Source: Maritalea porphyrae (GTDB lineage Bacteria; Pseudomonadota; Alphaproteobacteria; Rhizobiales; Devosiaceae). Taken from it: DNA of 64,000 nt. The position numbers and the translations under genes are program-made. The notes below the pieces were generated by a model. It saw nothing but the letters and a program-made list of their open reading frames with translations, made no database searches and was not told where the DNA came from. How positions within the stretch are numbered: the first letter of the stretch is position 1; every line of letters starts with the position of its first letter. Where the stretch lies: contig NZ_BSNI01000002.1 in the NCBI RefSeq assembly GCF_030159895.1, positions 374,039 through 438,038 on the forward strand, in the 5' to 3' direction. This document shows positions 47,044-51,876 of this stretch, one piece after another.

Positions 47044-47913
47044 ATGAATGACATGACACCACTTTTTGCCAAGGCGCAGGACTATCAAATCGTCAAAAAG
47101 GTGATCGAGGAAATATCTCTTCGGCCCGCCGACGAACACGATTTTGAAGCTTTGGCACGTGACCTATCAATGACTTCACGCCAGTTGACCGCGCTCTTTA
47201 AACGCTGGGCCGGGCTAACCCCGAAAGCCTTTTCGCAATGCGTGACGCTTAATCGCGCCAGGCAAATGTTGCGCGAAAATGCGCCTTTGCTCGATACAAG
47301 CTATGAGCTAGGGCTTTCATCTGCTGCACGGCTTTACGATTTGTTTGTCACGCACGATGCGATGCCACCAGGGGCCTATAAAGCAAAGGGAGAGGGGCTG
47401 GAAATCCGCTATGGTTTCCACCCGTCACCATTTGGCCAAGCGCTGATCATGGTCACTGACTACGGATTGGCAGGACAAGCGTTTTGTGATGAAGGCGAAG
47501 AACAGGCGGCGCTAGAAGACATGACACGACGTTGGCCCAAAGCAAACTATGTTCACGCTGAAAATCAAGAAACCCGACAATGGGCAGAAAAGATTTTTGA
47601 TCCCAATAAGTGGGATAAAGATCAGCCCATAAAAGTGGTGATGATCGGCACCGACTTTGAGGTGCGGGTTTGGCAAACTCTGTTAGGCATCAAACCAGGG
47701 CAAGCCACATCTTATGGGGAAATCGCCGCCCATATCGGCAAACCAAAAGCCGCGCGCGCTGTAGGCGCAGCGGTTGGCCGCAACCCAATTTCTTTCGTTG
47801 TGCCTTGCCACCGGGTCATCGGCAAGAACGCAAAGCTAACTGGTTATCATTGGGGCTTAACCCGCAAACAAGCCATTTTAGGTTGGGAAGCCGGGTTGGT
47901 GGCGCAGACATAA
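47044..47913 (+). CDS. AraC-type HTH / O6-methylguanine-DNA methyltransferase fusion (Ada-like without N-domain)
   Basis: The 289-residue protein joins an AraC-type helix-turn-helix domain (residues about 15-110, DFEALARDLSMTSRQLTALFKRWAGLTPKAFSQCV) to a C-terminal methyltransferase (about 125-289) with the suicide cysteine in FVVPCHRVIG. Full-length Ada also has an N-terminal zinc domain that senses methylphosphotriesters; it is missing here, so the protein can repair O6-methylguanine but probably cannot be activated in the E. coli way. It ends at a shared terminator with gpmA. Confidence 0.9.
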   Translation: MNDMTPLFAKAQDYQIVKKVIEEISLRPADEHDFEALARDLSMTSRQLTALFKRWAGLTPKAFSQCVTLNRARQMLRENAPLLDTSYELGLSSAARLYDLFVTHDAMPPGAYKAKGEGLEIRYGFHPSPFGQALIMVTDYGLAGQAFCDEGEEQAALEDMTRRWPKANYVHAENQETRQWAEKIFDPNKWDKDQPIKVVMIGTDFEVRVWQTLLGIKPGQATSYGEIAAHIGKPKAARAVGAAVGRNPISFVVPCHRVIGKNAKLTGYHWGLTRKQAILGWEAGLVAQT

Positions 47914-47939
47914 AAAAGGCGGTCCGAAGACCGCCTTTT
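47914..47939. terminator. Bidirectional terminator between the Ada-like gene and gpmA
   Basis: AAAAGGCGGTC and GACCGCCTTTT make a perfect 11-base stem with a CGAA tetraloop. A and T runs on both sides serve both convergent genes. Confidence 0.93.
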
Positions 47940-47942
47940 GTT

Positions 47943-48560
47943 CTATTCGATGTTTTCGACGTTGGTGACGTTTCCGTCCGCATCAAAATCATAGATAATC
48001 GGTTTACCGGTGGCGATTTCGCGTTTCAAGATCTGCTCCGGGGTTAGCCCTTCAAGCTTCATCACCAAAGCGCGGAGCGAGTTGCCGTGCGCGGCGACCA
48101 AAATTGTGCCGCCATCTGCAACACGAGGTGCAATTTCGGCTTCGTAGTAAGGCAAAACGCGCTCTGCAGTATCTTTTAAGCTTTCGCCGCCTGGAGGTGG
48201 GGTGTCATATGAACGGCGCCAAATATGAACCTGTTCTTCGCCCCATTTTTCGCGGGCATCATCTTTGTTCAAGCCTGCAAGGTCGCCATAGTCTCGCTCA
48301 TTTAACGCTTGGTTGCGGATGATCGTCATATTGACGATGTCCATATTCTCCAAGATCAAATCGAGTGTGCGTTGTGCGCGCGTTAGCGCTGATGTGTAAC
48401 ACAACTCAATCTCGTAACCGCGCGATTTGAGCAATTTGCCAGCAGCAATTGCTTCTTCAACACCTTTTTCCGTAAGGCCTGGGTTTTTCCAACCCGTGAA
48501 TAGGTTTTTGAGGTTCCATTCGCTCTGCCCGTGGCGAACAAGAATCAGTCTACGATCCAT
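47943..48560 (-). CDS. gpmA: 2,3-bisphosphoglycerate-dependent phosphoglycerate mutase
   Basis: The 205-residue enzyme interconverts 3- and 2-phosphoglycerate. It has [18 protein letters not shown] with the phospho-His near residue 9, and the second catalytic His in [14 protein letters not shown] near 155. The shorter length (about 205 rather than 250) is normal for alphaproteobacteria. It is the first gene left of the shared terminator and follows dapB in the leftward direction. Confidence 0.94.
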
Positions 48561-48586: not shown

Positions 48587-49387
48587 TTAAAGGCCAAGAA
48601 CGTCGGCCATTGAATAAAGTCCAGGCGCCTTATCTTGCGCCCAAAGTGAGGCATGTACTGCGCCATTGGCAAATATAGAGCGATCTTGCGCATGGTGGCT
48701 GAGTTCGATCCGCTCATTGCTGCCGGCAAACACAACGGAATGATCACCTATCACCGTGCCGCCGCGCAAAGTGGCGAAACCAATTGTGCCAGGCTCACGA
48801 GCGCCAGTAATCCCGTCGCGCGCACGCACGGCGTTGCTGGCAAGGTCAATTTCTCGGCCCTCAGCTGCTGCTTCCCCCAGCATCAAAGCTGTGCCAGACG
48901 GCGCATCCACCTTCATGCGGTGGTGCATTTCCAAAACCTCAATGTCAAAGTCCTCAGGCAAGGCCGCTGCCGCTTTTTTCACCAAACCCATCAGCAAGTT
49001 GACACCCAATGACATGTTGCCCGCTTTAACCAAGCGGCCATTGCCTGACAAAGAAGCGATTTCAGCGTCTTCTTCGGCGGTCCAGCCTGTGGTGCCAATC
49101 ACATGAACAAGACCAAGCGCGTGTGCCTTCTTCGCGTAATCGATTGAGACTTGCGGCGCGGTGAAATCGATAATGGCATCTGAGCCGTCAAGCGCTTCAT
49201 CCACGTTCGAGGTGATCAATACGCCTGATGGCTCTAACCCTGTAAGGGCCCGCGCATCTTTGCCGATCGCATCGACGCCTTCGCGCTCAAGCGCACTGTA
49301 AAGGGCCGCGCCATCAATTTGCGCTATCGCGTGTATTATCGCCTGGCCCATTCGGCCCGTTGCGCCTAAAACTGTGATCTTTTGCAT
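48587..49387 (-). CDS. dapB: 4-hydroxy-tetrahydrodipicolinate reductase
   Basis: The 266-residue enzyme of the lysine/diaminopimelate pathway has the NAD(P)-binding [14 protein letters not shown] at the N-terminus, [11 protein letters not shown] near residue 100, and the signature [21 protein letters not shown] with the catalytic His and Lys near 155. It is followed by gpmA 26 bases downstream, probably in the same transcript. Confidence 0.95.
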
Positions 49388-49445: not shown

Positions 49446-50687
49446 TTAAAACCGTTGGCCAAATACAACCCGTTCGCCCGCATGCGACAAGGCGTTTTCT
49501 ATCTCAGAAGTCTTGATTGCACGCAATTCTTCGCCAATATGTGCATCATCGAGATAACTAAAGCCAAGACGCAAATAATATGGCCCGTTCCAGGGTACAT
49601 TTTTGTAGGTAATCCCAGCAACGCCGCTGAACCCTTCTGCCTTGGCAAAATTAACAAAATGATTGATCAGCTTTTCGCCAAGGCCTTTGCCGTGATGATG
49701 TTTGAGCACAGACATTTCAGCGCAATATAAGATATTATCAACGGGCTTCGCCCGCAAAAACCCAACCGGTTCGCCGCGCAATTCCACGAGCCAGATGATT
49801 TGGTTCTGCCCGATTGCATCAATGTAGAATTGCGGTGTCATGGCGGAGAAATCAATATCTGCAAACCTGCCACCAAGCTGCCTGAACACAATGGCTGCAT
49901 TGTCTTCAATTGCGCTTAGTGCTTCAGCGTCCGTTGCATCGGCAGCGCGAAAGCTTGTGATGTTTTGATTGGCTGCAAATATCTCATCGTTGACCGCGCT
50001 AGCGGCGGCATAAGGATCATCAGCGCGATAAATGGGGCGGCCAACGACCAAATGGTCAGCGCCAATTTCAATCGCTTGGCTGGGGGTCAAAATGCGTTTT
50101 TGATCGTCTGTGGCGCTACCTGCTGGGCGAATGCCGGGCGTTACGGCCATCAACTTGCCCCCACTAGCCTGTTTCACTAGCTCAATCTCGTGGGCCGAGC
50201 AAATCACCCCGTCAATGCCAATGCCCGCAGCCTGTTTGGCGCGGCGCTCCACCAGATCACGAACACCATAGGCATAGCCGCTTGCCTTAAGGTCATCATC
50301 ATCTAAAGAGGTCATCACAGTAACGCCCATCAGTTTAGTCGATGAGCCTTCTGCAGCCCGTTTCGCAGCGGTCATGCAATGGGGTTCTGCGTGGATGGTG
50401 ACAATGTCTGCGCCAATATCCACAAGCCCTGCGACACCCTTTTCAACTGTGTTCGGGATATCGAGCAATTTGACATCGCAAAAGACCTTCTTCCCCGCAG
50501 CTTTGAGCGCCTTTGCCAATCCCAGACCATCATCGCCGTAAATCAACTGATAGCCAATTTTGAAGAACACCCCATTATCATCGATTTTTTCGACAAGTGC
50601 TTCAGCCTCCTTGCGGGTCGAAACATCAAGTGCGGTAATCAATTGAGGGGTAGCATTGGTCATTGAGGGTGGGTCTCCGGCGGTCAT
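49446..50687 (-). CDS. pyrF: Orotidine-5'-phosphate decarboxylase fused to a GNAT acetyltransferase domain
   Basis: The 413-residue protein begins with a complete PyrF barrel (residues about 15-240) showing the catalytic Asp-Lys-Asp in FCDVKLLDIPNT and the phosphate-binding VVGRPIYRA. It then runs straight into a second domain (about 245-413) of GNAT type, with the acetyl-CoA region SVLKHHHGKGLGEKLINHF and a Y-x-R-x-GF end. PyrF makes UMP and normally has only about 230 residues. The reading frame is continuous with no stop between the parts. The start is ATG 50687 or the ATG eight codons on; neither has a clear ribosome site. Confidence 0.9.
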   Translation of the reverse strand: MTAGDPPSMTNATPQLITALDVSTRKEAEALVEKIDDNGVFFKIGYQLIYGDDGLGLAKALKAAGKKVFCDVKLLDIPNTVEKGVAGLVDIGADIVTIHAEPHCMTAAKRAAEGSSTKLMGVTVMTSLDDDDLKASGYAYGVRDLVERRAKQAAGIGIDGVICSAHEIELVKQASGGKLMAVTPGIRPAGSATDDQKRILTPSQAIEIGADHLVVGRPIYRADDPYAAASAVNDEIFAANQNITSFRAADATDAEALSAIEDNAAIVFRQLGGRFADIDFSAMTPQFYIDAIGQNQIIWLVELRGEPVGFLRAKPVDNILYCAEMSVLKHHHGKGLGEKLINHFVNFAKAEGFSGVAGITYKNVPWNGPYYLRLGFSYLDDAHIGEELRAIKTSEIENALSHAGERVVFGQRF

Positions 50688-50732: not shown

Positions 50733-51329
50733 CTAATGTTGTGGCCAGTCTTCTAACGCTATCCAGTCCGTGAGCAGTTTCTGCGTTGACCATTCAAAGG
50801 CGAACATGTTTCCACCTCCTTTTGCGGCCATCAGCCGTTGATCTTCGGTGCGAGCAATTGAGCGATTGCCTATATGGCATTTCAGAAGTGTGCCAATCGT
50901 ACCATGGCCGACAAACAAGGTGTTGTCGTTCATGTCATTTACCAGGTGCGAATTTAGCGCTGCGATCATGCGATTCAATGTATCACTAGCGCTTTCCCAG
51001 CCGTTGGCACGCTCGTTCGGCCTTTCATAAAGCAAATTGAGGGTGTTCTCGAACTCTTCTTTGGTTAAAAAGCCGGTCGCTAAACGTTCATTTTCATTAC
51101 ACAAGGGCTCTTCGATAACGCCAATGCCGATATGCTTGGAGATGATCGTCGCGGCTTGCTGTGCTTTTTTCTCTTTGGAGCAAATGATTTGCGTGATGGA
51201 AGCAAACGTGCCACGCGATGCAGCATTTTCGATGCGTTGGCGACCAATGCGTGAGAGCGACCAAAATGTGGCGTGCATTTCGGGATCAATGGTCACTTCA
51301 GGGTGTGTGAGATAGAAAGATCTTCCCAT
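50733..51329 (-). CDS. Histidine-phosphatase-superfamily protein with altered RHG motif
   Basis: The 198-residue protein has the fold and spacing of the histidine phosphatase family: a first motif near residue 9, a CSKEKKAQQAATII region near 49, and a second catalytic His in LFVGHGTIG near 140. The usual first motif RHG reads THP here (FYLTHPEVTIDP): the histidine that carries the phosphate is kept, but the arginine is threonine and glycine is proline. Activity may be reduced or specialised. It lies in a leftward run between a FMN reductase gene and pyrF. Confidence 0.8.
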   Translation of the reverse strand: MGRSFYLTHPEVTIDPEMHATFWSLSRIGRQRIENAASRGTFASITQIICSKEKKAQQAATIISKHIGIGVIEEPLCNENERLATGFLTKEEFENTLNLLYERPNERANGWESASDTLNRMIAALNSHLVNDMNDNTLFVGHGTIGTLLKCHIGNRSIARTEDQRLMAAKGGGNMFAFEWSTQKLLTDWIALEDWPQH

Positions 51330-51333
51330 CCGA

Positions 51334-51876
51334 TTATCGCTTAAGGGTCATCAACTCGTTCACCAACGCTTCGGCACGGGCAGCCACGCGCTGGTCGGCT
51401 AACTCGTCACTCTCATTAAAGGCACGCGCGGCCATACCAACACCTAAGGCAGTCGGGGCGATCAATGCGCCAACTTTGGAAAGTACGTCGCGCAAGTGCG
51501 AAAGCGCCATAATGCCGGCAAGCGAACCACTCGAGACGGATCCAATGCCAAATGTTGCTTTGGCAAAGGCCCCTAGTTTTTGGTGATGAACCCAATCAAT
51601 GGTGTTTTTCAACAAAGGTGTGAGAGAACCATTATACTCTGGCGATGCGATGAAAACGGCATCGGCTTGGGCCAGTAAATTCGCTAATTCAAGTGCGCAT
51701 TTTGGCTGTTCTTCACGCAACAAATCCTCGTTGAACAGCGGCATTTCAAAATTGGAAAGGTCCAAATAGGCAGCATCCGCGCCCCGAGCGCGCAAATGCC
51801 GAACCATCATGTGGGCCAATTTGGCATTGAAAGAGTCTTTACGTATCGACCCCGAAATTGCGAGAATTTTTGTCAT
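51334..51876 (-). CDS. NADPH-dependent FMN reductase family protein
   Basis: The 180-residue flavodoxin-fold protein has the FMN phosphate loop ISGSIRKDSFNAKLA at the N-terminus and the isoalloxazine-binding SPEYNGSLTPLLKNTIDWVHH near residue 80. Members reduce quinones, chromate or FMN using NADPH. The physiological substrate is unknown. It ends five bases before the histidine-phosphatase gene start and may be cotranscribed with it. Confidence 0.9.
   Translation of the reverse strand: MTKILAISGSIRKDSFNAKLAHMMVRHLRARGADAAYLDLSNFEMPLFNEDLLREEQPKCALELANLLAQADAVFIASPEYNGSLTPLLKNTIDWVHHQKLGAFAKATFGIGSVSSGSLAGIMALSHLRDVLSKVGALIAPTALGVGMAARAFNESDELADQRVAARAEALVNELMTLKR

Follow-up and report, generated by a model that had tools for sequence, protein, structure and literature searches.

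Across the genus Maritalea, pyrF-GNAT occurs as a genuine fusion gene, in which one reading frame joins orotidine-5'-phosphate (OMP) decarboxylase, PyrF, to a C-terminal GNAT acetyltransferase domain. The explanation of the whole that we favor, and hold to be reasonably probable, is that two operon neighbors fused in a manner now seen throughout the genus, leaving two enzymes that would work separately on one chain.

Structure and genomic context of the fusion gene

The gene lies in a 64,000-nucleotide stretch of Maritalea DNA (the window), where a single minus-strand open frame extends from 50687 to 49446 with no stop codon at the junction. This frame, together with Pfam matches to both domains, bears out an earlier note on this DNA, which had described one continuous frame with a complete OMP decarboxylase followed by a complete GNAT domain and had asked whether a stop was missed at the junction; the frame of this minus-strand gene is open throughout. 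The same note began the frame at 50687, which proved too early. In all six Maritalea species (6/6), GCCGGAG stands just 5' of the conserved ATG (50663 in the window). The ATG at 50687 precedes this GGAG, and one relative (L032) carries an in-frame TAA immediately before the conserved ATG. Because of this GGAG placement and the L032 TAA, Met-9 of the frame from 50687 (position 50663) is very probably the true start, giving a protein of 405 aa. We annotated the gene and its parts as follows:

49446..50663, minus strand: pyrF-GNAT fusion gene, 405 aa, stop included (open frame; start of the six-orthologue Maritalea alignment; conserved upstream GGAG)
50675..50678, minus strand: GGAG, conserved upstream of the ATG and likely the ribosome-binding site for pyrF-GNAT
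49962..50663, minus strand: PyrF (OMP decarboxylase) part, residues 1-234 (Pfam PF00215; NCBIfam NF001273; invariant residues)
49449..49961, minus strand: GNAT acetyltransferase part, residues about 235-405 (PF13508 and PF00583 above cut-off; PA2271 (9cr5) profile match; alignment)

In an AlphaFold2 single-chain model of the full protein (mean pLDDT 85.8, pTM 0.81), the last PyrF helix (217-234) passes virtually without a linker into the first GNAT strand (236-240), in agreement with the junction proposed earlier at about 49960. Confidence is high at the joint between the two domains, and the model has no exposed linker there. Since codons 215-258 of the window genome contain no in-frame ATG, GTG or TTG, no obvious start site is available for the GNAT half alone; candidate starts in other species are not conserved, and we rejected a separate GNAT start.

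On the minus strand the gene order is dnaK, dnaJ, FMN reductase, histidine phosphatase, pyrF-GNAT, dapB and gpm, and we saw no terminator-like site between the fusion gene and dapB. The nearest flanking features are:

51334..51876, minus strand: NADPH-FMN reductase-like gene, a conserved pyrF neighbor (PF03358, E 2.3e-34; neighborhood table)
50733..51329, minus strand: divergent histidine-phosphatase gene upstream of pyrF (PF00300, E 1.2e-10)
48587..49387, minus strand: dapB, the next downstream gene (TIGR00036 above cut-off), 58 bp from the fusion gene
47943..48560, minus strand: gpm, phosphoglycerate mutase (NF002339 above cut-off), end of the apparent operon
47914..47939, minus strand: terminator-like hairpin 3' of gpm (11-pair stem and a T run)

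The histidine-phosphatase gene evolves fast (48-52% identity within the genus), and its RHG motif is replaced by THP (YLTHPEV), as it is in L032 and L033; the product is possibly an inactive or altered enzyme. Beyond the hairpin, the plus-strand gene at 47044-47913 encodes a protein that joins an AraC-type HTH with an O6-methylguanine-DNA methyltransferase domain, resembling Ada without its N-terminal domain.

Features of the PyrF and GNAT halves

Residues 14-231 match OMPdecase (PF00215, E 1.7e-54), and the NCBIfam equivalog for orotidine-5'-phosphate decarboxylase, NF001273, scores 257 bits (cut-off 193). By Foldseek, this half matches solved bacterial OMP decarboxylases with TM-scores of 0.83-0.90, normalized by target length. 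OMP decarboxylases characteristically form dimers that place the active sites at the interface. Across 26 aligned PyrF sequences, D13, K35, D63, K65, D68, Q188 and R209 are invariant; we take D13, K35 and D63xK65xxD68 to be the catalytic Asp/Lys set, and Q188 and R209 to be ligand-binding. The fusion is the sole OMP decarboxylase gene in the 3.35-Mb genome, and from this single copy and the conserved residues we infer that the N-terminal half makes UMP as the only OMP decarboxylase of the cell.

The C-terminal half matches Acetyltransf_7 (PF13508, E 2e-11) and Acetyltransf_1 (PF00583, E 9e-11) above cut-off at residues about 287-377 (given also as about 287-381 of the frame from 50687), and its model has the GNAT-type order of alpha/beta strands and helices. 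By sequence, its closest solved relative is PA2271 (9cr5) of P. aeruginosa, with a family-profile match at E 2.7e-41 covering profile positions 6-173 of 175. In NCBIfam, no named family scores above cut-off; the nearest are mostly small-molecule or ribosomal-protein acetyltransferases, all as weak matches. A core motif (N, G, P, Y, G, F; NGPxY...GF) is invariant in 10 aligned sequences and reads WNGPYY in the window protein, and a tyrosine is the usual general acid of GNATs (PMC8072286), Tyr363 of WNGPYY being a candidate for this role. Compared with the acetyl-CoA loop pattern Q/R-x-x-G-x-G/A, the window protein has HHGKGLG (Q to H) and three species have HQGKGLG. The M. porphyrae orthologue at L033 4019-5233 has HQGKRIG, in which Arg replaces a loop Gly and may weaken acetyl-CoA binding. 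Overall, we predict a PA2271-like GNAT that would use acyl-CoA as donor to acylate an acceptor, which is probably an amine. Base composition gives no sign of a foreign origin for this half (GC 0.479, against 0.484-0.554 for its neighbors and a window mean of 0.494), and we rejected that candidate.

Conservation and selection

The earlier note had suggested looking for the same fusion in other genomes, and we found it intact, without an internal stop and at 65-86% identity, in 6/6 Maritalea genomes, which include the named relatives M. porphyrae, M. mediterranea, M. myrionectae and M. mobilis, along with one uncultured Maritalea. The fusion is therefore neither a chance event nor an assembly error. 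That a sequencing or assembly error joined two genes, which the earlier note had named as a refutation, has a practically negligible probability, as the same junction recurs in six assemblies of different species.

We searched 136 genomes of the family, of which 129 had a match, and the two domains were fused only in the six Maritalea. A sample of the order (397 genomes) held no further open fusion among the matches listed, and the fusion was not found on plasmids. The class-wide search used a strict threshold and so excludes fusions beyond the order only weakly. As far as seen, the domain combination is restricted to one genus.

For the species pairs L034-L036, in which synonymous change is unsaturated, dN/dS was about 0.03 in the PyrF half and 0.13-0.16 in the GNAT half, indicating that both halves are under purifying selection, the GNAT half more loosely.

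Origin of the fusion

In two other genera of the family (G008 and G009), the GNAT gene is separate and lies between pyrF and dapB, its GTG start overlapping the TGA stop of pyrF by 4 bases (GTGA); in most other family loci read, dapB directly follows pyrF. These pairs have the same two kinds of gene, in the same order and at the same site before dapB, as the fusion, but they encode two proteins, and their GNAT domains are only about 26% identical to that of Maritalea. An origin from an operon pair is most likely because two genera keep overlapping separate genes in the same place, and the idea, raised earlier, that the fused genes came from a shared transcription unit is thus well supported by the unfused GTGA pairs of these related genera.

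We propose that an ancestral GNAT gene would have stood between pyrF and dapB in a dnaK-dnaJ-FMN reductase-pyrF-dapB-gpm cluster, where a GTGA overlap with pyrF would have coupled the translation of both. A small indel would then have deleted the pyrF stop, bringing pyrF and GNAT into a single frame, and the halves would now act as separate enzymes on a shared chain at a fixed 1:1 ratio. This order of events, the activity of both halves and their independent action are what we infer; the data themselves show the fusion and its conservation, intact motifs, selection acting on each half, and the unfused neighbors of related genera.

In a tree of GNAT domains, the Maritalea domain did not group with the G008 and G009 GNATs, whose rows have very long branches, although the grouping was not rejected (p-AU 0.13). 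A mixed alignment of fusions and separate GNATs was left out, as it aligned GNATs over PyrF. Because the tree leaves the grouping neither recovered nor rejected, common descent of the G008, G009 and Maritalea neighbors rests mainly on position.

Outside the family, 14 genomes have pyrF and a GNAT gene on the same strand within about 400 bp, whereas by our own estimate, based on about 120 GNAT matches across 397 multi-megabase genomes, far fewer than 1 such pair would be expected by chance. In family f44, eight genomes of genus g84 have a GNAT gene after pyrF, and families f13, f34 and f40 have the order pyrF, DUF1330, GNAT. A DUF1330 gene lies between pyrF and GNAT at loci L094 and L098-L103, in three other families of the order; the window genome has DUF1330 elsewhere only. 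One clade uniting every GNAT adjacent to pyrF was rejected (p-AU 0.005), and the adjacency may therefore have been gained, or lost, more than once.

Function of the fused protein

Most likely, the protein is a predicted bifunctional enzyme, with two independent activities on one chain, fixed by operon fusion. We weighed this against another view, which retains a modest outside chance: the acetyltransferase domain may be a passenger in decay, or may have become no more than a structural tail of PyrF. The GNAT half diverges much faster than the PyrF half (44-77% versus 81-95% identity), and its acetyl-CoA loop is variable (HHGKGLG in the window, HQGKRIG in L033). The dN/dS of this half, the frame kept open in six species, and the invariance of the core motif and Tyr363 all argue against decay, and the upstream histidine-phosphatase gene diverges equally fast. 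Cleavage of the finished chain into free PyrF and GNAT proteins is very improbable: junction residues 226-240 are the least conserved (47-67% identity among the window protein, L032 and L033), but the modeled helix 217-234 runs into strand 236-240 at high confidence, with no exposed linker.

The GNAT half might instead act on PyrF, as the earlier note had suggested it could, acetylating a lysine in the same or a partner chain and tying UMP synthesis to the supply of acetyl-CoA. We judge this unlikely. OMP decarboxylase has catalytic lysines (K35 and K65 in the window protein), and pyrF and GNAT are adjacent in several families and fused in Maritalea. Acetylated lysines in E. coli OPRTase, the preceding enzyme, strongly lower its activity (PMC10087573), which makes control of PyrF thinkable; the acetylation reported there, however, concerns PyrE, and the main acetylation route in E. 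coli is non-enzymatic, via acetyl-phosphate (PMC10087573). In most relatives, a similar PyrF occurs with no GNAT gene next to it, and the acetyltransferase families nearest to this GNAT by weak matches, mostly acting on small molecules or ribosomal proteins, also point away from PyrF as the acceptor. A broader version, in which the GNAT regulates PyrF by acetylation or by sensing acetyl-CoA and the pyrF-GNAT neighborhoods of related families are the unfused form, appears decidedly unlikely.

Relation to known systems

Stand-alone bacterial PyrF proteins (1eix, 3ldv) share the whole domain, the catalytic residues and the fold with the Maritalea protein, which differs by its added C-terminal GNAT domain. 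UMP synthase, the PyrE-PyrF fusion of eukaryotes, likewise places PyrF in a two-domain protein; its partner is the preceding enzyme, OPRTase, whereas the partner in Maritalea is an acetyltransferase, and neither Pfam nor NCBIfam gave a phosphoribosyltransferase (OPRTase) match in the fusion protein. PA2271 (9cr5) matches nearly the whole GNAT half, its VPWNxPxY motif included, but is a stand-alone GNAT. A literature search on the fusion, Maritalea pyrF and PA2271 found nothing relevant. The domain combination is without an earlier report in the literature searched, and with an ordinary evolutionary explanation its novelty is tidy but modest.

Gene fusions hint at functional links, and here a well-studied enzyme of UMP synthesis is permanently joined to an acetyltransferase. 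The likely unfused precursor arrangement survives in relatives, making a possible link between the GNAT and pyrimidine synthesis directly testable, and the fusion could help to assign a substrate to PA2271-like GNATs.
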